Source of the DNA: Bacteroidota bacterium
GTDB taxonomy: Bacteria; Bacteroidota; Bacteroidia; UKL13-3
Assembly: GCA_947464275.1 (NCBI GenBank)
Contig: CANHVU010000001.1
Coordinates: forward strand, 1 to 64,000
Direction of reading: 5' to 3'
Length of the DNA stretch: 64,000 bases
Shown here: positions 3,825 to 44,834 of the stretch, piece after piece
How positions within the stretch are numbered: position 1 is the stretch's first letter
Layout of the letters: every line of letters starts with the position of its first letter
Position numbers and translations under genes: made by a program
The notes under the pieces: model-generated
The model's database searches: none
Told to the model about the DNA's origin: nothing
What the model saw: only the letters and a program-made list of their open reading frames with translations

Positions 3825-3832
3825 TAAATTTG
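3825..3832 (+). promoter_or_regulatory. Putative -7 box before the solenoid surface protein gene
   Basis: TAAATTTG matches TAnnTTTG exactly. No clear TTTG lies at the -33 distance, only a T-rich stretch. The TTG inside this box is in frame with the gene but is better read as promoter than as a start codon. Confidence 0.35.
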
Positions 3833-3853
3833 CCCACATTACATTCTAATTAT

Positions 3854-6800
3854 ATGAAAGACATGAACTTGAACAGAAATTTTATTGCTTTTTTATTACT
3901 ACCTTTTTTGTCTATCAATTTCTTGAATAGTCAAAATATATATAACTTAGAACCAATTCAAGTAGTTGGACAAATGAATGGCTACTCTACTTCATCAAAT
4001 TCAAATACTACCTATCGTAAAATTAGTACTTCAGCAGCTGGCAATCCTACCGATGGTAGGGGGCAATGGATAAAAACATACAATGTTGAAACAAGTGGTG
4101 GAGATTTCGCACCACGTAATATGATTGGAGGAAGTGGAGCTGGATTTTTATTTGTATCAGGACCAAGTACTAATAGATTTGCGAATAAGTGGGTGTTTAG
4201 TGGAGTTGCTCAAGGGTCTGTAAATGCTGTAAATGTTTGTAATGCCTATAATTCAGGAAACGATATGGGTTTAAATATGAATACTGTAGGTAAATATACA
4301 TTTGTATTTAATGATGCAGGTTATTCATCAACCAATGCAAAATATTATGTAGCATATACATCATCAACTCCAATAACTGTTAGCAGAACAAGCGAGTTTT
4401 TAAACATTGATAGAAGTGCTAATATTTCAATTACTACCAATACAACACCCTCATTTGGCGAAAATATTTTTATTCGTTATACCACTGCTGCTGATTTCTC
4501 ATCAGCTAATACAAGTTCAGTTGTTCAAGCCACTGGATTAAATACTTCTTGGTCGGCAAATATTCCTGCTCAAGCAATAGGAAGCACTGTTAGGTATTAT
4601 ATATTCACCTCCACCATTAGTTTAGCTTCATTAAACAGCATGTCAGAAATTGACAAATCGTTAGCAACATTAAATTATGATGATAATAGTGGAAGCAATT
4701 ATGCTTATAATTTAACATCAAATTTCACTTCTGTAACCTCTGGTAATTTTACTGATTTGGCTACTTGGGGTGTAAGTCAAATATTTAGTGGTGCTTCATA
4801 TACAATTGCCAATTCAAACACTGTTAACTTAAATCAAGATTTTACTGTTCAGAATTTAACGCTAAACTCTGGAGGGAATTTTAACAACAACTCATTTACT
4901 TTAAATATTGCAACAAATGGCAGTATTATAAACAATGGAGATTCAAGCACTTCATTTAATGCAAATTCAGGTAAAATCAATTTCATTGGAGCAGGATCAA
5001 TTAGTGGTAGTAAATCAACCATTTTAAATAGGTTAACCATTAATTCTGGAACAGTTACATTAACAACTGTACCTTTTATTAATGATACCTTTCAAATCAA
5101 TGGAGGAAATGTTTCAGCTGCACCTATTTATTCAATTAACTCAACCCTTTTATATAACACAACTTATAGTAGATTTAACGAATGGAACCATGTTGGTGTA
5201 GGAACAATTGGAACAAGTGCTGGGTACCCTAATAATGTTACCATAGCTGCAGGCACTTTTAATTTGGCCAACTCAAGCACAGCTGCTAGAGCAATGTATG
5301 GTTCATTAAATATTAATTCAGGAGCAACATTAAATGTTAACTCGGCTAATATGCTTTTAACTGTTGGAGGAAATATTGCTAATAATGGAACCTTTAATAG
5401 TGCTTCAACTGGAACGATAGCGCTGGCAAATAATTCAACCATAACTGGGAATACATTAATATTAAATAATTTAACCATAAATGGAATAACATCATTAGGC
5501 CAAACAATAATAAATGGACAATTAACCTTAAACAATGGTTCAAGCATTAATTCGGGAACTCCAAATTATGGTTCATCTGCTACATTAATTTATAATTATA
5601 ATACAAATATTGGATTAGAATGGCCATCAACAAACGGCCCTTTTAATGTGACCTTAGGTGCTTCAATTGGATTGTTAGAACTTAATGAGAATAAAACGAT
5701 AAATGGCACCTTAACCATAAACAATGGTTCAACTTTGGATGTAGGTGCATCAAATTATTCAATAACATTTGGCAACAATTCAAATTTTATTAATAATGGC
5801 ACTTTCAATTCAAACTTTGGCACAATAAATTTTAATGGTTTATCAACTATTACGGGCAATATTAGCTTTTATAAAGTAAATATTTTAGGTGGTGTTAATT
5901 TTGGTACTCTATCAACTGTAAATGATAGTTTAAACATTAAACCCGGTGGCTATATTATAAATAATCCACCAACATATGGAAGTTCATCCACACTAAATTA
6001 CTCATCAGGTGCCACTTATATTGCAGGTACGGAATGGACAATTGGAACGGAATCAGGAAGAGGAGTACCTAGCAATATTTTCATAAGCAACAATACCAAT
6101 CTTTCCTTTGGAACTACAGCTGCTTACAGACAATTATTAGGAAATATAATTATTGAAAATGGTTCAACTGTTACATTATCGAGTAATATTGGCGGTGATA
6201 TTAAAATTAAGGGTAGCTGGCAAAACAATAACATTGCTAAAGGGACTGGTTTTGTGCATAATAATAGGGCTTTAATTTGTAATGGTTCAGGGAATCAATA
6301 TTTAAATAATTTATCAGGAAGATTAACTATAGGTTATTTGCTTTTAAACAAAACAAATGGATCATTAATTTTAAATGATAGCTTATTTTTAAATGGAACC
6401 GCAACCGGAACTGCACAGGTACTTCAGTTGTTAAACAATGGAAACTTAGATTTAAATGGAAATGTTTTAACAATAAATGGTGGGCAAGTTCGCTCTATAT
6501 TATGCAATAACACTTCAAACTTAATTACAGGATCTGAAAATAGTCAAATAAACTTTGAATCAGGAACAGGAATTGCCCTAATTGAAGGAATAGGAAATTT
6601 AACAATAGATAGTAATATCTACTTAAGTATTAACAAAGGAGTAAATTTTGGTCTAAATAAAACCACCATAAAAGGAACACTTGAGATAAATGACGGTTCA
6701 TTTTGCAGTGTTAATTCACCACTTTATACTTCTTCATCTACACTAGTTTATAAAACAGGAAGCTACACACAAAGCAATGAATGGACACCAACAAATTATC

Positions 6801-7984
6801 CTTCAAATATTAAAATTAATTTACTCAATTCATCAAATTCTATTACTTTATCAAGTAGTAGATCCATTTCAGGAACTTTATCATTAATAAATGGAAACAT
6901 TAATACCAATAACGATACTTTAAAACTACTATCAAATTCTTCAATAATTAGAACCAACGGACACATAATTGGTAATTTATCGAAGTACTTTCCAATAGGA
7001 AGTAATACTTCAAAAACTTATGAAGTTGGTACAAGCCTAGGATATACGCCAATAGCAATAAATTTTCCAAATATTACAACTGATGGATTTATTACTTTAT
7101 GTTCTAAGGATAGTGATAATGTGAATATAAGTTCGTCTGGTTTAAAACCTAACAAAAGCGTTAATAGAAATTGGTTAATTAACAGTACAACGGTTGCGCC
7201 TATATCTTATAATATAGAACTAAACTACTTAAATTCAGACAATGATACGCTGGTAAATTATTCAAATTATAAACTTAATACATTTAACTTGGGTGCGTGG
7301 GGCGGCAAAATAAATGCTACAGGAACACCAAATGCTACAACTGCTAGTTATAGCGGTTTAAGTAGTTTTGGCTCAATTCAAATTGCAGAAGATAGTGCTA
7401 CTTCAATGGGAGCAACACTTAATTTAACGGCTTATTTACAAGGCTTATATACAGGTGCTGGCACCATGACTTCAGCTCCATTTAATTATGATGGCGTTAG
7501 CCCTAACTCAATTGCGGATACTATCACAGTTGAATTACATGAAGCAGCCTCGCCTTACAATACTGTATTTTCAGTAACAGGTTTATTAAGTACCACAGGA
7601 AATGCAAATTTACTTTTTCCTTCAGGAGCCATTGGAAACTACTATTATATTGCAGTTAAACACAGAAACTCAATAGAAACTTGGAGCTCAGATACTGTTC
7701 AAATGACAACTGCTACCAATTATGATTTTAGTTCAGGAGCTGGTCAGGCTTTTGGTAATAACATTATTGATGATGGTACGGGTATATTTTTATTATATAG
7801 TGGCGATATTAATCAGGATGGCTCTGTTGATTTTGCAGATTATCCCGATTTAGATTTGGGAAGCAGCAATGGAGATATTGGATATCTTGCAACTGATTTA
7901 AACGGGGACTCTTCAGTCGATTTTGCTGATTATCCACTAATAGACCCTAGTAGTAGTTTAGGAATTATTTTGTTTAGACCTTAA
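3854..7984 (+). CDS. Large secreted surface protein: solenoid-like repeats plus dockerin-like tail
   Basis: This 1376-residue protein starts at the ATG at 3854 (another at 3863), directly ahead of a signal peptide ending near LNSQ. An in-frame TTG at 3830 is rejected because it lies in the promoter box. Residues from about 300 to 1080 are Asn/Ser/Thr/Gly-rich, with recurring phrases such as LTINNGSTL and NNGTFNS that look like a parallel beta-solenoid. A longer unit, roughly YGSSSTLxY...EW...PxNxxI, occurs four times (near 5122, 5563, 5965 and 6717). The last 180 residues form a module common in Bacteroidota surface proteins ([26 protein letters not shown]). It ends in two EF-hand-like loops, [12 protein letters not shown] and [12 protein letters not shown], as in dockerins. 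There is no T9SS sorting domain at the very end. Likely role: calcium-stabilised surface adhesion or matrix; the ligand is unknown. Its stop overlaps the convergent ade stop. Confidence 0.8.
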
Positions 7985-33330: not shown

Positions 33331-36300
33331 CTATTGTCTTATTAAGGTAATTGAACCACGAACTGTTTTTTCAGGCTCACCTCTTAATTGATAAGTGAAT
33401 AGATAATAATACGTTCCTGCTGGGTTTTCACCACCATCGTTGTTGGTTTTTCCATTCCACATTCTTTGAGCATTATCGCTTTCAAAAACTGTATTACCCC
33501 ATCTGTTCCAAATTACGATGCTGTATTTTTGATATCCTTCAATATCAATTTTAAATACATCATTTTTGTCATCACCATTTGGAGTAAATACGTTTGGAAT
33601 ATTTATTTTCCCTTTTGGAATAATTACTTGAATTACCTTACAAACTGAATCAGGACAGCTATTTGTACCAGCCACATCTGCCACAATACAAACATTAAAT
33701 GCTCTGCTTGAGTCTATGTCAAATGTTTGAACAAAATCGTTCAAATTACTTGCTTCGTCAAAATCTTTTGGAAAGCCTGTGAATTGTGATCCATCAGGAT
33801 TGTAAATTTTCCAAGTATATTTATCAGAGATAACAGTATCAGATGTATTTACTAATCTAAATTGATTTTCACCTGCTTGAGTAGCGGTAAAATCAGCTTT
33901 AGATTTAGCAGCAACCATTGTTACAGTATCGTGGTTTGGACAAGGCGAGTACGCTCTATCAAACTTAGTAGATGAAAGAACAAGTTTATACTGTCCTACT
34001 TTATTAAACTTATACTGCCAAGCAGTATCGGCCACAAAGTTAGTTTTGAGCACCGAATCAAGTTTATTGCCAAATGTTCCATCATAAACATCCATTCTAT
34101 AACGATTTATGGTATCTCTATCAGAACGATTGCGTATTTTAAATACTTCGCCAACACAAACTGTATCTTTTGAAGTTACTAAATCAACCTTGTATGGAAC
34201 ATTTATTACTATCCTAATTGGTTTTTGGAATCCATCTACCGTATCAGGTACTATAGCTGGCCTACATGCACTAGCACTACCATCTTCTGTATTATAACCT
34301 TCGGCTGTAATATAAAAAGTTCCTGGTTGGTCGTAATAGAAAACTGCAGTATCAATTACAGAATATTTATAAGTATATGATAACCTATCAGGACGACCAG
34401 AACGTATAATAGTTAATTTAGTAAATGTATCTTCAGGCAAACTCCAATTTTCTCTTTCTGGAATATTAACCACTCTTACTCTTTGAGGAGTACATCCTAA
34501 AGTATCATCAAGCAAAATTAAATGTGGACGAGGACCACTTAAAATTATATCTTTCTCTACTTCACTCTTACACCCTTGCTCTGTTATAATTTCTAATCTT
34601 ACTCTGTATTTTCCATATAATCTATAATCATACTGAGGATCTTTTAAGATAGATTGAGGTGCTTTTGGATAATATTTTCTATCGCCAAACCACCACTTCC
34701 ATTGTGCAATTCTATCTAATGAATCTGTACCTGTAGAGGCAGCATAACCGTCTAATATAATAGTAGAATCTCTGAAAAGGTATTTGTCACCACAAATAAA
34801 TATGTCTTTAGAAGCAATTTGCGCAATAGGTTTAACCACATTCACAAACTGAATACAAGTATCCCATCTTCCGGTACTATCTCTAGTAATCATGGATACT
34901 TTATATCTTCCCCACTTATCGTATTTATGGGTTACATTAGGTAATTTTCCTGGAGTTAATTCTGTATTGGCTTCTAAATGATCAATTACACCATCACTTT
35001 CAAAATCCCAATAAACACGCTCATAGAAAAATTCATTCAATTTATTTTTGAAACACTGGGTTAGTGTTTTTCCTACATCATTGGTAATTACTGTTCTGTT
35101 AACATATCCAAATGGACATACTGGTACATTTCCATTTAAAGTAATATAATCCCAAGGAACCCAAGTAATATCAGTTCTAATTGAATCAATAGGATATGTA
35201 TGTTTGGTGTAAGCCCACTGATGCATATTTCCATGATCATGATTATCTAACCAATTTTCGTTGGCTGGTATATTTAATGGACGAGAACAAGCTGATGAAG
35301 GATACCAATACCTCACGGAATCTCTGAAGTAAACTGTTTCTCCTTCACAATAAACAGAATCAATATCACCATTGCTATTCAACATATCAAAAGTATCAAT
35401 AACACCTATTACCACGTGGTAACTAGCTAATGTTTGACATCTTGAAAAAGTATTGGTTACCATAATATGATCAACCCTAGTAATATCACCAACCCTAATC
35501 AATTCACCATCACCACCAAGTGTCATTTGCTCAAACGATGATTTTTCGTATTTATGAGTAATTGGCAGTAACATAAGACTAGTATCCACAATAGTAGTTA
35601 CAGTATCATATTTAGGATACAATTTGTTGATATCCCAGCAATCATAATTTATGGAAACTGTTTTATACTGAGACATACGAGTTCCTATAGGGAAATACTC
35701 CATGCTAGAATTACTCCATGGCAATGTTAGGGTATTAAAATGGTACCTAATTCTATTATAAGGAATATCTGAACCTGGGTTGTAATAAAATGAATCTATG
35801 GTAGCTGTTCCATCACCCCAATTCCAAACATCGGCAATTACATTGTCTTGCATCGAATCTAGGTAGTGGAAAGTTACATTATCGCCCTTTCCGCGTAAAT
35901 AACAGAAAGATACTTTATTGTCCATTATTTCATTTTCGTATGTATAATTTTCAATTTTAAAATCAGCTTGTAACTGAATAAAGCGGAAGAAATTATGGTA
36001 CCAAACAGTATCACTCATACCACAATTTGGATCAGGTATGGTACAATCTGTTGGAGATTTACATCCAGTACCTACCACTAAACCCAAGGTAACCCAACCT
36101 TTTTTAGTATCAAAAGGCATGTTAGTAAATCCATATGAGTTTGAACCAGCAGGGTAATAATGTACATTGGTACTAGAACCAGAAGGACCAGTCCAAGCAT
36201 TTGGTGGCGGTCTTCTATTTGGCGAATTCCACATTGGCGGCATCACTAAACCTCCTCTGGTTTGTCCTTTAGCAACTTTTCCTTCTGCCGAAAAATCCAA

Positions 36301-39300
36301 ATTAGCCGATCCGTCAAATGGTACAAAATTATCTAACACACAAGGTGTCATATCATTTCTATCCAACAACGAGTCATAGTTAATTTGTAAGAACGTTCTG
36401 GAATTACTAGGCAAAATACCTGCACCTTGCGTTTTTTGTAAAGTATCGGTAAATCCATTATTATCAAAAATTAACCTTGCACTTCCACCAAAGTCTTTAC
36501 TAATAAACTCACCTGGACAAATCTTTCCATCTTGCAATAATCCAAAGGCATCAGGACGAGTAAATGATAATAATACGGTAGAAGATCCATTACAATCCCA
36601 ATCATCTAAAAACAAAGAGTCGGTTATAATAGAATCTTTAAGACCTTTAGTAATAGGATTGTAAATTTTAATCGTATCAAATTTAACTTTTACTTTTCTA
36701 TAATCAGGGTCTGCAGAAGCATTATTCAATGAATCTTTCATCCTCAGTGTTACAGAAATATCTTTAATTACATCTCGTTTAAATGCATATTCATATAAAG
36801 TCATTGGCGGATTAATACCCGGAATGATATCTGAACCTTTGTACCTTCTTAAACGACCATCATTAGCAACAGGCAACACAATATTTAGTAAACCAGTATC
36901 TATCCTTGTTCCTGCTCTGATTAAATCCATCCAATTTCCGCGGTATGCCGATATTGGATCAGGAATAGCTTTACTCAAAGTAATTACTCTATTTGGATTG
37001 ATATCCGCAGGCCAAATATTAGCCATGGTATCTAACCTACTTTGAACCGCTCCGGTGGCTCTAACTTGTTTATTCCAACTAGATGTATCTATACCTGAAA
37101 CCCAAAATTTACCAGTTGGAGGGGCTATTGGTGGCGGCCAACTTACATAAGTATTTGCCCAAGCTTTAGACCAAGCAGTTGTATCGTACGGAGGAAAATC
37201 ATGTCCATATTTATACCAATTTAGTATTTTATCCCAATTGGTATAATTATGAGTAGGAATACTATCATGTGAGAAATTACAACCATTAAATCTACCCAAA
37301 TACCTTTTACCATTAGCTATAAATGCACCATAAGTTCTAGCTTGCTGGTCGAATGCATTAACATATGGAGGTTCTCCATTAAAAGCAGTTGTAGGGTTTG
37401 GAATAGAATAAGATGTACAAGCAGGAGCAAAATCATCTTCAGCAAAATCCCAACGAATCCATAACCTGTCTGATTGGTATGCTACTGATGTATTTACAAA
37501 TTGCACATCATATTCAGGACCACATTGTACCTTTTGCCATTGTAATATAGTAATAGGAGGAGGAGAGGTTTTCTCAATTCTAACCTGAGGTCCCAAAATA
37601 TTTATACCAAATCCAACCAATAAGTCTCCTTCAATTACCTTCCAAATTCCATTTATTAAGGTAATATTAGTTGTATCTTTAGGTCTATAAAATAACTCAC
37701 CTTCGGTAACATCTATTGGCGCAGCCCCATTATAGGAAATTTGTTCACCGGCCAAATTATTGTAATTTCCTGTTGTACCAACCCCGTTTACTAATGCTTC
37801 ATTCATAGCTAAACCTGTTGGCAAATTTTTAACCCTGTATTTAATTGGAGAAGAATACTCGTATATCGCAGGAACAGTATTTAATAATCCAGTAAAAGGA
37901 TTTTTAAATGTGTAAGGAACGGTATCCCAATAATTTGGAACAAAAGTGGTATCAGAATTAAAGAAGCTATAATTTCTCGCGGTGAAATCAGCATTCTTTT
38001 GATGTCGGTAGTAAAACCCTAAAAAATTGGTTGGATTAGTAGGATCAATAATAGTATCAATTTTGTAGTTAGATACTTGTCCATTATAATTAATCAATAA
38101 ATATTTTTGATTAGTTAAAAATAACGGATCTCTTAAGAACTTCCCTAATCTAGTAGGTATTCTTGGAAATAACCTGTAAGACTCTGGATTTAATGAAGAA
38201 GGAAACATGGCATTAGGCGCACTGAAATAATTTTCATATTGGTACCGTTTCCTGTCTTTTGGTAAAGTATCTATTTTTGAATAAAAGTTGTAAACAATTG
38301 GCTTAGGTGGAGTTCCAGGACAAATTACAGTTAAAGTAGGATAAAACTGACCTAATCCTAAGTATTTATAGGTAGGTTGGTCATCCAAAAATCTATCTGA
38401 TACTCCTGGTGTTGTTGCATTTGGATCATTAAAATTCCAAATAATACTTAACCTAGTACCGCCTTTACCTATTAATTCTCTATTGTTATATAAAGTAACT
38501 GAGCCATCTTGTGGTTTTAATAAACAAACAGAATCGGCTATAGTATCATTTTGAAGTTCTCTTTTTGTTAAAATTTCAATTTCGTAAATAATATTTTCAG
38601 GTAAAGGTAAACCTGTAGTTCTATAATAAAATGTGTCTGCACATCCTAATGGCTTATTTACCACTGTTAATGAAGGATAAAATACATTATTATCAGTATA
38701 TAAGTGAGTAAATGATTTACTCCAAGCATTAAAATCTTCAGTTACAGTATTTGGTGGTCCGGAAACATACTTTTTACCATCTCCAAAATCCCAAACAAAT
38801 GATTTAACATAACTAAAACCCAAATCAGTTTTATTAGTAAATATATATGGAGTTGTATCGCAACGAGGAGAACCAGTTATGGTGAATTTAGGATTGATAT
38901 CCGCAGCTAAACTAATTACTCTTACACTTTGAAAATCTCTTGTTGGGTCGGTTCTACAACCCACAGAATCAACTACTGTTAAACTAACTTTATAAGTAGG
39001 GTTTACTAAATTATAACTATGACAAATATTCCTAATATTTGTATCAGTAATTAGCCTCGCATTACCATCTGCATAAACCCACTCGTAGCTTAACAAAGGG
39101 GCATCCCCTTGAGTTGTAAGATTATTAAAACAGTAGTTATTGTTTTTGAAACATTGTGTATCTCTACTTGCTAAAGTAATGATTGTTTTGGGTCTTTCCC
39201 AAATTTTTCTCTGTTTTGTAACTATAATGTCTGGTCCATTTGTTCTTTTTACAACTAGAGTAATGTTATAAAGACCCCCTTTATTATAAATTTTAGAGAA

Positions 39301-39567
39301 AAAAGTACTAGGCGGATTAGGCCCGTTCCTTGTTAACATAGAAGTGTCGTTAGGAATACCCCATCTTACAGTGTATGAAACTACATCTGATTCAGGAATT
39401 CCAGGAATTACATTAACCTGGGTTAAGTCAACTTCCGAACACGCTATTTTAGGTGTTATTGTAAAGTCGGACTGGGCTTTAACCAATACAGACATAAACA
39501 ATAACAAAATTAAAACCGCTTTATGTTTTAATTTGTTGGTTGATAGTTTAAAGTACATATATTTCAT
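33331..39567 (-). CDS. Giant secreted PKD-type protein with T9SS type B sorting domain
   Basis: This 2078-residue surface protein has a signal peptide ending near VLVKAQ, then a long series of immunoglobulin-like PKD domains. Copies of the WDFGDG-type motif are visible at SFVWDFGDGKKY, DVWNWGDGTATID and KWWFGDRKYYP. The last 90 or so residues are a type B (gliding-associated) sorting domain. It starts IPNVFTPNGDDKNDVF, contains IWNRWGNTVFES, and ends GSITLIRQ. It is exported through Sec and then the T9SS. The middle is Pro/Asn/Tyr-rich and contains many invariant-looking Cys. It is the third gene of a minus-strand run after an ECF sigma and anti-sigma pair, so it may be a target of that sigma. 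Function as an adhesin or scaffold is inferred. Confidence 0.85.
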   Translation of the reverse strand: MKYMYFKLSTNKLKHKAVLILLLFMSVLVKAQSDFTITPKIACSEVDLTQVNVIPGIPESDVVSYTVRWGIPNDTSMLTRNGPNPPSTFFSKIYNKGGLYNITLVVKRTNGPDIIVTKQRKIWERPKTIITLASRDTQCFKNNNYCFNNLTTQGDAPLLSYEWVYADGNARLITDTNIRNICHSYNLVNPTYKVSLTVVDSVGCRTDPTRDFQSVRVISLAADINPKFTITGSPRCDTTPYIFTNKTDLGFSYVKSFVWDFGDGKKYVSGPPNTVTEDFNAWSKSFTHLYTDNNVFYPSLTVVNKPLGCADTFYYRTTGLPLPENIIYEIEILTKRELQNDTIADSVCLLKPQDGSVTLYNNRELIGKGGTRLSIIWNFNDPNATTPGVSDRFLDDQPTYKYLGLGQFYPTLTVICPGTPPKPIVYNFYSKIDTLPKDRKRYQYENYFSAPNAMFPSSLNPESYRLFPRIPTRLGKFLRDPLFLTNQKYLLINYNGQVSNYKIDTIIDPTNPTNFLGFYYRHQKNADFTARNYSFFNSDTTFVPNYWDTVPYTFKNPFTGLLNTVPAIYEYSSPIKYRVKNLPTGLAMNEALVNGVGTTGNYNNLAGEQISYNGAAPIDVTEGELFYRPKDTTNITLINGIWKVIEGDLLVGFGINILGPQVRIEKTSPPPITILQWQKVQCGPEYDVQFVNTSVAYQSDRLWIRWDFAEDDFAPACTSYSIPNPTTAFNGEPPYVNAFDQQARTYGAFIANGKRYLGRFNGCNFSHDSIPTHNYTNWDKILNWYKYGHDFPPYDTTAWSKAWANTYVSWPPPIAPPTGKFWVSGIDTSSWNKQVRATGAVQSRLDTMANIWPADINPNRVITLSKAIPDPISAYRGNWMDLIRAGTRIDTGLLNIVLPVANDGRLRRYKGSDIIPGINPPMTLYEYAFKRDVIKDISVTLRMKDSLNNASADPDYRKVKVKFDTIKIYNPITKGLKDSIITDSLFLDDWDCNGSSTVLLSFTRPDAFGLLQDGKICPGEFISKDFGGSARLIFDNNGFTDTLQKTQGAGILPSNSRTFLQINYDSLLDRNDMTPCVLDNFVPFDGSANLDFSAEGKVAKGQTRGGLVMPPMWNSPNRRPPPNAWTGPSGSSTNVHYYPAGSNSYGFTNMPFDTKKGWVTLGLVVGTGCKSPTDCTIPDPNCGMSDTVWYHNFFRFIQLQADFKIENYTYENEIMDNKVSFCYLRGKGDNVTFHYLDSMQDNVIADVWNWGDGTATIDSFYYNPGSDIPYNRIRYHFNTLTLPWSNSSMEYFPIGTRMSQYKTVSINYDCWDINKLYPKYDTVTTIVDTSLMLLPITHKYEKSSFEQMTLGGDGELIRVGDITRVDHIMVTNTFSRCQTLASYHVVIGVIDTFDMLNSNGDIDSVYCEGETVYFRDSVRYWYPSSACSRPLNIPANENWLDNHDHGNMHQWAYTKHTYPIDSIRTDITWVPWDYITLNGNVPVCPFGYVNRTVITNDVGKTLTQCFKNKLNEFFYERVYWDFESDGVIDHLEANTELTPGKLPNVTHKYDKWGRYKVSMITRDSTGRWDTCIQFVNVVKPIAQIASKDIFICGDKYLFRDSTIILDGYAASTGTDSLDRIAQWKWWFGDRKYYPKAPQSILKDPQYDYRLYGKYRVRLEIITEQGCKSEVEKDIILSGPRPHLILLDDTLGCTPQRVRVVNIPERENWSLPEDTFTKLTIIRSGRPDRLSYTYKYSVIDTAVFYYDQPGTFYITAEGYNTEDGSASACRPAIVPDTVDGFQKPIRIVINVPYKVDLVTSKDTVCVGEVFKIRNRSDRDTINRYRMDVYDGTFGNKLDSVLKTNFVADTAWQYKFNKVGQYKLVLSSTKFDRAYSPCPNHDTVTMVAAKSKADFTATQAGENQFRLVNTSDTVISDKYTWKIYNPDGSQFTGFPKDFDEASNLNDFVQTFDIDSSRAFNVCIVADVAGTNSCPDSVCKVIQVIIPKGKINIPNVFTPNGDDKNDVFKIDIEGYQKYSIVIWNRWGNTVFESDNAQRMWNGKTNNDGGENPAGTYYYLFTYQLRGEPEKTVRGSITLIRQ

Positions 39568-39635: not shown

Positions 39636-40535
39636 TTAACGTATGAGCTTGATTTTGGTCATTTGTGTTTGTAATTTATCATTATTAATAAATTTAAAAT
39701 TCAAAACTCCATAGTAAATGCCACTATTACAAGCCTGTCCAGTTTTTTGACTAACTCCATCCCAAGTAAAATTTTTATCATTACTTTCAAAAACTAACTC
39801 GTTATTAAAATTATAAATTTTTAAATTAAACAATTTTTCACCTTCAATTTCTATTACATACCTATCATTTAAACCATCATTATTTGGGGTTAACACATTA
39901 GGTGTTTTAATAAATGCTGATTCGTTTTTGTTTGTTTCGGTTGCTTCAAAATTATTTTCAATATTTTCAATTGAATCAATTTTATCATCCAAATCAATTT
40001 CTGGTATGGTAGGATTTGTGATTATCTCAGTAACAACTAAAGGAGTAACAGTCTGCTCAAGATTTTTATTATTTAAACCTTCTTGCTGTTTATTCTCCAC
40101 ATTTACTTTATGCTCAATAAAGTTATCATTTATATGAGCCTCTTGAGTTTTAATTAAATTATTAGAAACATATTTTTCATTGTTTGTAAAAGTTTCTTTT
40201 GGCTTATCAGTAACCTGCGTTTCATCTAAATTAATCTCAGGAGAATTTACTGCAATTGGCACTTTTAATTCTGCAACTTTTGATTCTCTTTCAATATTTT
40301 CTTTTTTACTGTTTTTTGTGTAAAAATAAGTAGCCACCGAAGCAGGAATAGCCAAAATAGCAGTTACCTTAATTACAGTTAAAGCCAATTTGCTAAATAC
40401 AACCTTACCACCAGCTACACCGCTTTGAGCAGCTGCATTGGCTTGAATACCTTGCTCAATTCCAGCCCAAATATTCGGGGCCTCGGGAGCAAAATCCTGC
40501 ATTTGTTGTTTTAATATTTCGTCTAAATTATTCAA
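39636..40535 (-). CDS. Anti-sigma-like membrane protein fused to a T9SS type B sorting domain
   Basis: This 299-residue protein overlaps the sigma-factor gene by four bases (ATGA), the usual sigma/anti-sigma arrangement. Residues 1-45 (MNNLDEILKQQMQDFAPEAP) resemble the cytosolic sigma-binding segment of Bacteroidota anti-sigma factors, with a Trp near 22. One membrane helix follows at about 50-73 (KLALTVIKVTAILAIPASVA). Then comes a Glu/Asn/Thr-rich periplasmic linker to about 210. The end is a type B sorting domain: TPNVLTPNNDGLNDRYVIEI, LVFESNDKNFTWDG, and the terminus TKIKLIR. There is no cleavable signal peptide, so the domain should hang tethered in the periplasm. The combination is unusual, and a sensing role is my inference. 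Confidence 0.7.
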   Translation of the reverse strand: MNNLDEILKQQMQDFAPEAPNIWAGIEQGIQANAAAQSGVAGGKVVFSKLALTVIKVTAILAIPASVATYFYTKNSKKENIERESKVAELKVPIAVNSPEINLDETQVTDKPKETFTNNEKYVSNNLIKTQEAHINDNFIEHKVNVENKQQEGLNNKNLEQTVTPLVVTEIITNPTIPEIDLDDKIDSIENIENNFEATETNKNESAFIKTPNVLTPNNDGLNDRYVIEIEGEKLFNLKIYNFNNELVFESNDKNFTWDGVSQKTGQACNSGIYYGVLNFKFINNDKLQTQMTKIKLIR

Positions 40536-41065
40536 TTTACTTTTTTATATTCTTTTATAAAAGCTGCTCTTGCTCTTGCAAGTTGGCTTTTTGATGTTCC
40601 TTCATTAATTCCAAGCATTTCTGCTATTTCAGCATGCGAAAACCCCTCAATGGCATACAAATTTAAAACTGTTCTATATCCTAATGCCAATTTTTGCATG
40701 GTTTCCATAATTTCTTTTTGACTGATCCTGTCAATTGTAAAACTATCAAAACCCAAATCAAACTCTTCTGCTATATCAGATGTTTCAGTATAAAATTTAT
40801 TTACCCTAATATTTTCCAAAGCACAGTTAACAAAAATTCTCCTCATCCAAGCTTCAATCACACCTTTGCCTTCAAATTGCTTCATTTTTCCAAAAACCCT
40901 AATATAACCTTCTTGCAAAGTATCTTTGGCGTCTTCGGCATCTTTACAATACCTCAAACATATTCCATACATTTGCTTAGAAGTAAGTTCATACAACTTT
41001 TTATGAGCATTAGAATTCCCTTGTATGCACTTTTCAATTAAATCTTGAGTTACGTTTTGGCTCAC
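40532..41065 (-). CDS. ECF-type RNA polymerase sigma factor
   Basis: This 177-residue sigma-70 family protein shows region 2 at YCKDAEDAKDTLQEGYIRVF and region 4 at LALGYRTVLNLYAIEGFSHAEIAEMLGI, ending in the helix-turn-helix part EGTSKSQLARARAAFIKEY. The only in-frame start is a GTG at 41065, because a stop codon lies five codons upstream. It is first in a minus-strand run with the anti-sigma-like gene and the giant T9SS cargo. By analogy with other Bacteroidota ECF cassettes it should switch on its own operon when the anti-sigma is inactivated. Confidence 0.92.
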   Translation of the reverse strand: MSQNVTQDLIEKCIQGNSNAHKKLYELTSKQMYGICLRYCKDAEDAKDTLQEGYIRVFGKMKQFEGKGVIEAWMRRIFVNCALENIRVNKFYTETSDIAEEFDLGFDSFTIDRISQKEIMETMQKLALGYRTVLNLYAIEGFSHAEIAEMLGINEGTSKSQLARARAAFIKEYKKVN

Positions 41066-41209
41066 TTTTCTTTTGCTTTAGGTTTGATTAAAGAATCAAT
41101 TTTTTAGTTGCATGTTATGATAAAAAAAACTTAATTTTTTCTAAACACTTTTATTACCCTATATTTCAATTACATTTTTACTTACTTTGTATTTATTACA
41201 TTATCCGCT

Positions 41210-43981
41210 TTGATTGCTAAAAACAAACATATAATATTCGTTACAACCTTACTTCTGAGTTTGGTATTTAACATAAAGGCACAGGTGTTTAAAGTAAATG
41301 AAAATAAAAACAACAGTTTTTACCTTACAGAAAATAAAGGACAATGGGATTCAGACATAAAATATAAATATGCCAACTCAGTCAATCATATATTGTTCAA
41401 ACCAAATCAAATTTGCTATTACTTTTTGAACGAAGAAAATGTAAGTAACGCAAACCGTCATTTAAAAAAAGGTGAAAAAGAATTAAGTTTAATAAATGGT
41501 CATTATTTAATGCTTAATTTTGAGTCTGCTAATAATAACTCTATAATCATACCAAGCGGGCAAGCAGCTCCATTTTACAAAAATTATTATATTGGTAGTA
41601 ATCCCCAAAAATGGCAATCAAAAGTTCAATCATTTTGTCAAGTTACTTACCAAAATATTTATCAAAATATTGATTTAAAAGTTTCTACAAAAGGTGATAT
41701 TGGCCTAAAATACGATTGGGTAATTAGACCTAATGCTGATTTAGATGATATAAAACTTAATTTTCAAGGGGCAGACACCATATATAGTCAATACAACGAA
41801 TTATACATAAAACATAGTCAAGGTATTTTAAAGGAACAAAAACCTTTTGCTTATCAAATAATTAATGGAAGGCGAATTTTGGTTAATGTATATTATGCTA
41901 TTAACAAAAACACAGTTAGCTTTAATGCTGACTCTTATAACAAAAACTATGAACTAATTATTGACCCAGATTTAATTTTTAGTACCTACAGTGGAGCCAC
42001 TGATGATAATTTTGGATTTACAGCCACTTATGATAGTGAGGGGAATTTATATGCAGGTGGTGTTACCACCGATGCTTTTGGAGGTGAATATCCAGTAACG
42101 GCAGGAGCATTTCAATTAACTTATAAAGGTGGAGATGTAGAAGCACCTGTGAATTTGGCATGCGATATAACCATTAGTAAATACAGCAGCGATGGTAAAC
42201 AATTGATTTACGCTACTTATTTAGGTGGTATAAAAAACGAATACCCGCACAGTTTAGTGGCAGATAATAACGACAATTTGGTAATAATGGGAACCAGCAA
42301 ATCGGTTGATTTTCCAATAAGTGCAGATGCTTACGATAACTCTCAAAATGGCGATATTGATATCATTGTGAGCAAATTAAGCAAAGATGGAACAACACTT
42401 ATAGGTTCAACTTTTATGGGTGGCTTAGGAAGTGACGGGCTTAATATTAAACCATTTTTAAACACATTTTACGCAGATGAATTTAGAGGCGATGCTATAA
42501 TTGACAAGCAAAATAATATTATAATTGGCAGTTGTAGTTTTTCAACCGATTTTCCAATAACTTCAGGTTCATTTGGTGCTGCTATTCCTAGTGCTATTCA
42601 AAAAGGTGTAGTTTTTAAACTTTCGCCAACTTGCAATAATTTGATTTTTAGTGCTGCCATGACCGGCAATAGCGAGGATGTAATTTACAGTGTTGACCTA
42701 AACCAAACGGGTGATATTTTTATAGCAGGAACTACAACGGGTAATATGCAAATTCCAACTGCAACCAATTCATTTATTGGAGGAAATTCTGATGGATTTT
42801 TTGCAAAAATAAAATTTGATGGCTCCACCATTTTAAAGGCAAAATATTTTGGAACTATTCAAAACGACCAAGTTTTTAGTTTGGAATTAGATAATAATGA
42901 AGATATTTACATTGTTGGAAATTCACTAGGAAATATTGCTCCCATTGGAAATGTGTATTCAGTTACCAATGGAAAACAATTTATAAGTAAGATAAACAAC
43001 GATTTTAGCACTATCAATTTTATAAGCACTTTTGGGCGAGGCGCAACAGATGTAGATTTAAGTATTAACGCTTTTTTATTAGATGATTGTGGGCGCCTAT
43101 ACATAAGCGGGTGGGGCGGCAGTGATGCCCGATTTAGATTAGGTGGAAATACAAACGGATTGCCGATTACAAATGATGCTTTTCAAAAAACAACAGATGG
43201 TAACGATTTTTATTTGATGGTATTAGGCCAAAATGCTGAAAAAATTTTATACGCCACATTTTTTGGAGGAAATAGCTCGCCCGACCACGTGGATGGAGGA
43301 ACAAGTAGGTTTGACAAAAAGGGATATATATATCAATCAGTATGTGCAAGTTGCCCTGCTAGTGGCAGTTTTTTGAGTGATTTCCCAACCAATGCAGATG
43401 CCGTTTTTAAAACAAATGTAAGTCCAAGATGCAGCAATGCGGCTTTTAAAATGTCGTTTAGGTTTAACCAAGCCACCATTGAAATGAAAATTGATACTTG
43501 CGCAAAAATTGTAACACTTGGTACTCCAATAGAAAATGCACTGAATTATTTATGGCTACTGCCAAATGGAAAAACTAGTATTTTAAAAAGCCCAATGGTA
43601 ACCATTGATGAAATAAACAATAAAGAAATTGTACTAATATTAAATGCGAATACCAATTGTGCAGATACTGCCAAACAAACCTTAAACTATAACGAATCAC
43701 TTAATAACGTAAAATTTAGCAATGTATTTACCCCTAATAATGATGGAATAAACGATTTGTTTTTTATAGATGGTATTAGCCAATGTGGAGAATATGAGTT
43801 GACTTTTTTTAATCGTTGGGGGCAAGAAATTTTTATAACAACAACCAACCAACCAAAATGGGATGGAAAAACAACTAATGGACAAGATGCTTTAGCAGGA
43901 ATATATTATTATTTGGGTTATTATAAAAAACAAAACGAACCAAAAGTAAAATTGCATGGTACAGTTACTTTAATTAGGTAA
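41210..43981 (+). CDS. Secreted SBBP-repeat protein with T9SS type B sorting domain
   Basis: This 923-residue protein begins with a signal peptide (MIAKNKHIIFVTTLLLSLVF) cut after NIKAQ. The ENKGQW region at residues about 35-260 is a conserved N-terminal domain of such proteins. SBBP-type beta-propeller repeats follow, with LIYATYLGGIKNEYPHSLV and GSTFMGGLGSDG-like units. A type B sorting domain closes the chain: VFTPNNDGINDLFFIDG, FFNRWGQEIF, KWDGKTTNG, ending HGTVTLIR. The start is a TTG at 41210; no ATG precedes the signal peptide. It is divergent from the sigma gene and continues into the PorV-like gene. It is a likely surface protein exported by the T9SS. Confidence 0.88.
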   Translation: MIAKNKHIIFVTTLLLSLVFNIKAQVFKVNENKNNSFYLTENKGQWDSDIKYKYANSVNHILFKPNQICYYFLNEENVSNANRHLKKGEKELSLINGHYLMLNFESANNNSIIIPSGQAAPFYKNYYIGSNPQKWQSKVQSFCQVTYQNIYQNIDLKVSTKGDIGLKYDWVIRPNADLDDIKLNFQGADTIYSQYNELYIKHSQGILKEQKPFAYQIINGRRILVNVYYAINKNTVSFNADSYNKNYELIIDPDLIFSTYSGATDDNFGFTATYDSEGNLYAGGVTTDAFGGEYPVTAGAFQLTYKGGDVEAPVNLACDITISKYSSDGKQLIYATYLGGIKNEYPHSLVADNNDNLVIMGTSKSVDFPISADAYDNSQNGDIDIIVSKLSKDGTTLIGSTFMGGLGSDGLNIKPFLNTFYADEFRGDAIIDKQNNIIIGSCSFSTDFPITSGSFGAAIPSAIQKGVVFKLSPTCNNLIFSAAMTGNSEDVIYSVDLNQTGDIFIAGTTTGNMQIPTATNSFIGGNSDGFFAKIKFDGSTILKAKYFGTIQNDQVFSLELDNNEDIYIVGNSLGNIAPIGNVYSVTNGKQFISKINNDFSTINFISTFGRGATDVDLSINAFLLDDCGRLYISGWGGSDARFRLGGNTNGLPITNDAFQKTTDGNDFYLMVLGQNAEKILYATFFGGNSSPDHVDGGTSRFDKKGYIYQSVCASCPASGSFLSDFPTNADAVFKTNVSPRCSNAAFKMSFRFNQATIEMKIDTCAKIVTLGTPIENALNYLWLLPNGKTSILKSPMVTIDEINNKEIVLILNANTNCADTAKQTLNYNESLNNVKFSNVFTPNNDGINDLFFIDGISQCGEYELTFFNRWGQEIFITTTNQPKWDGKTTNGQDALAGIYYYLGYYKKQNEPKVKLHGTVTLIR

Positions 43982-44021
43982 AATAAATTTTATTTTCGAA
44001 TTTTGATTTTTAATCTTTTAC

Positions 44022-44834
44022 TTGAAATCGATTTTAAAAATAGTATTGCTGATCATTGCATTCCAAAAAGTGGATGCTCAAATAGTGCACGACCCAATTG
44101 GTGCAAGAGCCTGGAGTTTGGGAGGAAGCAGTACAGCTGAAAGTAATGTGTTTTCTGTAAACAATAACATGGCTAGCTCAGCCGAATTAAAAAACTACCA
44201 ATTAGGCATTTATAACCAAACTCGTTTTGGTGTAAAAGAGCTTAACTTAATTAACTCAAGCTTTGTGCTCCCAACTAAATTTATTCATTTGGGTTTAAGC
44301 ATAAACCACTATGGGTATGAAAAATATAACCAACAAAACTTCAGCTTAGGAATTGCAAAAAAGCTTAACAACAACTTTAACCTAGGTGTAACGCTTAACT
44401 ACCTGACCATAAACATTGCAGAGCAAGAAAATACAAGCGCTTTAACAGGCAGCTTAAGTGCTTTTTATAAAATTAATAAAAACATTCAATTGGGTGTTTT
44501 ATTATTCAATCCAACTTTAAGCAATTACTCAATTAATGGCTATGGAAAAGTAAAAACTTTTGGAAGAATTGGTGTAAAATATCAAGTGAATAAAAGTGTG
44601 TATTTAATAGGCGATTTGGATAAAACCTTTGAACAAGAAACCATTTTAAGAGGTGGCATTAATTATGCTCTGCATCCCAATTTTGACTTAAGTTTAGGAT
44701 ATGCCAATAACCCTAATTATTTAACCTTTGGGTTTAATGCCAAAATAAAACAAATGGACTTAACCTTTGCTGCAAGCATGCATGAAATATTGGGTTTTAC
44801 ACCACATATTGGTTTGATATTTTATGGCAAATAA
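44022..44834 (+). CDS. PorV/PorQ-like outer-membrane beta-barrel protein
   Basis: This 270-residue protein has a signal peptide ending KVDAQ. Its first mature residues, GARAWSLGGSSTAESNVFSV, resemble the GARAxxMGGA opening of the PorV/UPF0164 family (FadL-like barrels). The remainder is alternating beta strands, such as FIHLGLSINHYGYEKYNQQ and NFNLGVTLNYLTIN, ending FTPHIGLIFYGK. PorV is a T9SS component that hands cargo to the sortase. Here similarity is only partial and a general barrel is also possible. The TTG at 44022 is the only usable start. It overlaps the next gene by 11 bases. Confidence 0.6.
   Translation: MKSILKIVLLIIAFQKVDAQIVHDPIGARAWSLGGSSTAESNVFSVNNNMASSAELKNYQLGIYNQTRFGVKELNLINSSFVLPTKFIHLGLSINHYGYEKYNQQNFSLGIAKKLNNNFNLGVTLNYLTINIAEQENTSALTGSLSAFYKINKNIQLGVLLFNPTLSNYSINGYGKVKTFGRIGVKYQVNKSVYLIGDLDKTFEQETILRGGINYALHPNFDLSLGYANNPNYLTFGFNAKIKQMDLTFAASMHEILGFTPHIGLIFYGK

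Follow-up and report, generated by a model that had tools for sequence, protein, structure and literature searches.

Across 11 families of the class, genes for ECF sigma factors are paired with genes for anti-sigma-like proteins that end in a modified form of the type B sorting domain of the type IX secretion system (T9SS), 54 such pairs having been collected in our survey. The pair was first noticed in a 64,000-nucleotide stretch of DNA from a Bacteroidota bacterium (hereafter the window). The finding is real and broader than the sequence-only reading of that stretch had shown, with two corrections: the sorting domain is modified, and the protein that carries it has the layout of the Dma proteins, the dual-membrane-spanning anti-sigmas of Bacteroidota (PMC13088901). 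Our best reading is that the protein is a secretion-coupled anti-sigma which controls the supply of T9SS cargo.

Organization and conservation of the locus

The sigma factor contains both regions 2 and 4, belongs to the ~180 aa size class and has an ECF-type promoter 5' of its gene (Table 1). The 4-bp overlap of its stop codon with the start of the anti-sigma gene likely couples the translation of the two. In these respects the sequence-only reading was accurate, in that it had a sigma gene overlapping that of a one-helix membrane protein with the same ORF coordinates, a tethered topology without a cleavable signal peptide, and a giant type B cargo as the next gene. By hydropathy no cleavable Sec signal peptide is apparent, the sole hydrophobic segment beginning after ~residue 38, and the PKD/CHU_C protein encoded by the third gene terminates in a normal type B CTD (Pfam). 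No terminator was called on the operon strand in the interval between the anti-sigma and giant genes. No promoter of the sigma-operon type is seen ahead of the divergent cargo gene, and no porP/sprF gene is linked to the sigma/anti-sigma operon; the window's genome encodes SprA, four PorP-family proteins, 108 type A matches and 14 other type B matches. In the window's genus the divergent cargo gene is followed (within 41210-44834) by a gene for a PorV/PorQ-like protein (NF033709, below cut-off), not PorP/SprF, and in other genera of the family a PorV-like gene is absent from this position. Elsewhere in the window, a 1384-aa ORF at 3830-7984 has no Pfam match at all.

Table 1. Features of the sigma/anti-sigma locus and its neighbours, in window coordinates.
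Feature	Position	Strand	Basis
Divergent DUF7948/SBBP type B cargo	41210-43981	+	Pfam; neighbour conserved in most of the family
ECF-type promoter TGCAACT-N17-ATC ahead of sigma gene	41086-41112	-	Footprint, motif
ECF sigma factor gene, 177 aa	40532-41065	-	Sigma70_r2 E 2.6e-11, Sigma70_r4_2 E 1.8e-16 (Pfam)
TTGA 4-bp overlap, sigma stop / anti-sigma TTG start	40532-40535	-	
Tethered anti-sigma-like protein, 299 aa	39636-40535	-	ORF, Pfam, model
Residues 1-40, predicted cytoplasmic sigma-binding domain, two helices (4-15, 23-34)	40416-40535	-	Model
Single membrane helix, ~residues 51-74, limits uncertain	40314-40385	-	Hydropathy; model helix 64-74, low confidence
Residues 75-207, disordered periplasmic linker	39915-40313	-	pLDDT <50 for 75-205
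Residues 208-299, CHU_C / type B T9SS-like domain	39639-39914	-	Pfam; pLDDT ~90 or more
Residues 243-244 (FN), at position of cargo RW (NRWG)	39804-39809	-	Alignment
Cys269, sole cysteine of protein	39729-39731	-	Alignment
Giant PKD protein, 2078 aa, type B CTD; operon gene 3	33331-39567	-	Pfam (PKD/CHU_C), NCBIfam

Of the 64 genomes in the window's order, 49 (counted from result rows) encode a near full-length homologue of the anti-sigma-like protein, those of the window's genus and family being full length and at the same position, and further homologues come from ten other families of the class, coded f5, f15, f19, f33, f37, f52, f55, f57, f59 and f61; the matches of the genome-contig profile scan are in MAGs only. 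The possibility that the reading frame is a chance ORF was ruled out by its conservation over 11 families and by a dN/dS of ~0.1 for its C-terminal domain. A giant CHU_C protein of 1431-2533 aa is encoded directly downstream in 43 of the 54 loci, with a gap of -8 to 645 bp that is mostly below 90 bp. The linkage is not universal, since 11 loci show no adjacent intact giant in view: in two (L063 and L143) the contig or stretch breaks off first, one (L110) has a split cargo frame, and the remainder, among them L112, L115, L117, L119, L122 and L126, have no neighbouring giant. We therefore regard the sigma/anti-sigma pair as the core of the system and the giant as a frequent third gene. One of these loci (L119, 7293-9511) has two different ECF sigma genes flanking a single CHU_C anti-sigma gene.

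The anti-sigma-like protein was modelled from a 25-sequence input, and its N-terminal domain has no Pfam match. Within the genus, identity to the window protein is 70% over the N-terminal 40 residues, 19% over the linker and 68% over the C-terminal domain, and within the family the corresponding values are 35%, 10% and 36%; because identity is high at the ends and low between them, selection evidently holds both ends of the protein and not the linker. The linker ranges from 117 to 299 aa across the 54 homologues, and several of the longer ones contain PKD domains, often ahead of CHU_C as in the giant cargo. These PKD domains, together with the co-operonic giant and its related CTD, would fit a protein that senses the giant itself or its unsecreted form, through CTD-CTD or PKD contact, and not a part of the T9SS; DegS/RseA senses unassembled porins. 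The six pairs named above, which have no giant beside them, count against such a sensor, and we consider it very unlikely.

A type B domain without the cargo RW pair

The claim that the protein ends in the same type B domain as T9SS cargo was only partly borne out. The Pfam CHU_C model matches residues 209-287 well above its cut-off (E 4.2e-14, 52.9 bits, cut-off 27), whereas the stricter NCBIfam model TIGR04131 gives E 2e-7 and 31.1 bits, below its cut-off of 35. 'Same' is inexact because the CHU_C domain at the C-terminus has diverged and is missing the RW pair of cargo. The best PDB match of the domain in a Foldseek search is the CTD-bearing T9SS protein PorZ, and further matches include chains of PorU, PorZ, RemZ and RemA; the CTDs of NucA and RemZ have been solved inside T9SS complexes, and realignment of the domain with that of NucA gives a Z of 8.8 and an rmsd of 2.0 over 72 residues. 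Unrelated Ig-like domains equal or exceed the scores of the T9SS CTDs in the fold search, so that the fold alone is no proof of a T9SS role.

In an alignment of the 54 anti-sigma domains with 43 giant CTDs and 44 other CTDs, the Trp of the NRWG motif is found in none of the anti-sigmas as against 78 of 87 cargo domains, and the RW pair in none as against 77 of 87, counts which refer to related sequences and not to independent events. The domain is thus no ordinary cargo tail. The stretches PNxFTPNxDGxND, FES, WDG, GxxxxGxY and the terminal LIR are largely retained in the anti-sigma domains, and the C-terminus is free. A tree of the CHU_C domains, built on few columns, contains eight label changes and is compatible with one origin of the anti-sigma domains or with more; within the window's genome, the CTD of the giant is no nearer to the anti-sigma domain than are those of two other cargo proteins. 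Two tiny ORFs in other loci (L140, 3352-3828, 158 aa; L147, 2750-3145, 131 aa) encode barely more than a CHU_C domain.

Since the Trp of NRWG is kept in none of the anti-sigmas, their C-terminal domain may be an export-disabled variant of the cargo domain. In SprB of Flavobacterium johnsoniae, secretion of the CTD was lost when any one of five conserved type B motifs was mutated (PMC12618676). We infer that NRWG is one of these five, in which case the anti-sigma domain would lack the full set. Loss of the RW pair makes sense as protection, because the export channel might become blocked if an inner-membrane protein carried a fully active type B signal; it could alternatively reflect loss of contact with the T9SS.

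This last possibility is the starting point for the main rival explanation, an ordinary tethered anti-sigma whose Ig-like domain was recruited from cargo and senses a cue unrelated to the T9SS, such as envelope stress, a ligand or, via Cys269, redox state. The absence of the Trp from all 54 homologues would fit it, as would the generic binding role of Ig-like folds, with unrelated proteins scoring equally in the fold search, and the conservation of a lone cysteine. A cysteine occupies the 269 column in 72% of anti-sigmas as against 38% of cargo, and 23 of the 54 anti-sigmas contain exactly one. A redox or disulfide role for the residue is conceivable, since T9SS components, GldK among them, form disulfides between molecules (PMC12635249). 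Against it speak the largely kept remaining type B stretches, the free C-terminus, the co-operonic giant in 43 of 54 loci and the T9SS cargo among the motif-linked genes described below. We judge it possible, though on the unlikely side.

The sigma-operon promoter and its candidate targets

The pattern [TG]GCAAC[CT]-N16-18-[AG]TC lies 5' of the sigma gene in 43 of the 54 loci, compared with a mean of 0.15 and a maximum of 3 in shuffled controls, and the sigma factor probably autoregulates its own operon. This promoter, together with copies of the motif ahead of T9SS cargo genes, makes the feedback loop proposed in the sequence-only reading likely. Across genomes of the window's own genus the pattern gives a weak signal, with 16 matches against 9 for the reversed pattern, and for this reason the reading was confined to copies that directly precede a start codon. 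Genome G029 has a single copy of the strict form TTGCAACC-N17-RTCT, at the sigma operon, and G028 and G017 have two each; looser forms were read in G000, G010, G011, G017 and G029, in the subset of matches with available sequence.

Outside the sigma operons there are nine intact promoter-placed copies in five genomes, six of which precede type A or type B T9SS cargo: an M43 protease ending in a type A CTD (G029 and G010), a type B cargo of 906/912 aa (G010 and G011) and a type A protein of 227/233 aa (G011 and G000). The motif overlaps the first called start of the 906/912-aa genes, and their true start is therefore probably further in. The three other copies precede a large membrane protein, which we take to be DUF2723, a 198-aa protein and a DUF1573 protein. 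With 88-118 type A and ~11-15 type B matches per genome, cargo makes up ~4% of genes, assuming about one gene per kilobase. On this basis six of nine has a P of ~3e-7 if the copies are independent and three of six ortholog groups one of ~1e-3, both being rough figures for counts that are small and were chosen post hoc, after the data had been seen. Paralogous sigmas may share the -35 element or have similar promoters.

A further copy (L254) is left out of the nine; it stands ahead of a type B cargo gene of G029 (768-1403) in which a frameshift splits the CTD over two frames. A type A CTD gene in G000 (contig C20, 13474-13686) contains an in-frame TGA. Also in G029 (contig C1, 921000-928500; L286), a gene of ~2500 aa or more contains several identical repeats, and the promoter pattern recurs in every one of them on the opposite strand.

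A Dma-like scaffold and a proposed coupling to secretion

In Bacteroides thetaiotaomicron, Dma1 and Dma2 begin with an anti-sigma domain, continue with a membrane helix and a disordered tether and end in a beta-barrel, and their genes adjoin an ECF21 sigma gene (PMC13088901). The window's genome encodes several sigma paralogs, each followed by a Dma-like protein. One such paralog (G000, contig C11) is modelled with N-terminal helices, a membrane helix at 77-107, disorder at 99-307 and a C-terminal barrel whose PDB matches include OmpA, OmpW and other barrels. Its N-terminus matches the CHU_C anti-sigma profile with an i-E of 1.8e-6 (Z set to 4000), the same comparison by hhalign giving E 2.9e-4 at a probability of 40%, and its sigma factor is 42% identical to that of the window. 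The window protein resembles the Dma proteins in its single membrane helix, long disordered tether and adjacent ECF sigma gene, and probably in its predicted N-terminal anti-sigma domain; it differs in ending in a modified type B T9SS domain where they end in a beta-barrel, and in having an operon that holds T9SS cargo and a promoter motif linked to cargo genes. Given the shared layout and the N-terminal homology to the Dma-like paralog, we read the protein as a Dma-type anti-sigma whose head has been swapped, although, lacking the beta-barrel, it falls outside the Dma family as strictly defined. What is new relative to the known Dma anti-sigmas would, on our best reading, be the replacement of the beta-barrel head by a modified T9SS sorting domain.

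The Dma layout could also mean that the domain is a true export signal, which crosses the outer membrane, docks on a PorP/SprF-like shuttle and so allows a dual-membrane-spanning protein to sense the cell surface. The likeness to Dma1/2 and to the paralog with its modelled barrel is consistent with this, as are the length of the linker and the binding of type B CTDs by PorP-like proteins (PMC9143113). The RW pair is, however, missing from every homologue, while secretion of the SprB CTD depended on each of the five motifs, and porP/sprF is not linked to the operon. An exported head is in our view quite improbable.

We favour, at a probability of about 0.5, a composite model in which a Dma-type tethered anti-sigma with a modified type B domain as its head couples the state of the T9SS to the supply of cargo. 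The N-terminal helices, by their position and homology, would keep the ECF sigma bound at the inner membrane, and the disordered linker would give the C-terminal domain access to T9SS components at the outer membrane. There the domain would be recognised as a substrate mimic; without the RW pair it would not be exported, and for that reason would not jam the channel. Its engagement would be set by competition from real cargo for the same site, and the resulting signal, travelling along the tether, would alter release of the sigma. The freed sigma would transcribe its own operon, including the giant type B cargo, and a few further T9SS cargo genes, and cargo supply would in this way be tied back to export capacity. 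We lean towards a sign in which free capacity leads to engagement of the domain and to sigma release, the opposite sign being nearly as likely.

Architecture, conservation, operon, promoter motif, RW loss and homology to the Dma-like paralog are computed observations. Counting for the composite model are the CHU_C domain with its fold matches to T9SS substrate CTDs, the conserved sigma/anti-sigma/giant order, the conservation of both protein ends, the promoter motif and the cargo behind its copies, the T9SS genes of the genome, the Dma-like paralog beside a paralogous sigma, the PKD domains of long homologues and the loss of the RW pair in all 54. Counting against it are the 11 loci without the giant, the lack of a linked PorP/SprF gene, the ambiguity of the RW loss, the absence of any special closeness between the anti-sigma domain and the giant's CTD, and the small motif counts.

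In the open-access literature we found no anti-sigma ending in a type B domain, and among CTD proteins described in regulation that matches cargo to the T9SS only PorA/SigP. PorA of Porphyromonas gingivalis is a CTD-bearing protein that acts on PorXY-SigP, the ECF sigma pathway governing the T9SS (PMC7712824), as the window protein is predicted to act on an ECF sigma pathway. PorA is surface exposed and works via a two-component system, whereas the window protein is predicted to be an inner-membrane anti-sigma, and SigP governs T9SS components, whereas the promoter motif described above precedes cargo genes. With T9SS type B cargo (TIGR04131/PF13585; PMC12618676, PMC9143113) the window protein shares the CHU_C domain, most of the conserved stretches and the free C-terminal end. 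Unlike such cargo, it has no apparent signal peptide and adds a predicted N-terminal anti-sigma domain and a membrane anchor; unlike type B cargo served by PorP/SprF shuttles, it lacks the RW of NRWG and a linked shuttle gene. For the question of how the output of large T9SS cargo is matched to export capacity in Bacteroidota, a conserved candidate sensor is now concrete and testable. Its architecture suggests a modular build for Dma-type anti-sigmas, in which one outer head can be exchanged for another, and the loss of the RW pair flags residues that may separate recognition by the T9SS from export. Other systems couple anti-sigma activity to the envelope. In flagella, the anti-sigma activity of FlgM on FliA is coupled to the export machine, FlgM being exported by the type III system, and in Escherichia coli RseA, acting with DegS on sigmaE, answers the C-terminal signals of undelivered envelope proteins via a protease cascade. 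Both are offered as analogies to the proposed coupling, with no homology claimed. Somewhat short of even odds, and so tentatively, we suggest a class-wide regulator, an anti-sigma whose dummy substrate is an export-disabled T9SS signal. How far the secretion system is occupied would then directly set how strongly its own cargo is transcribed, in a T9SS analogue of FlgM coupling reached by a swap of the Dma head.
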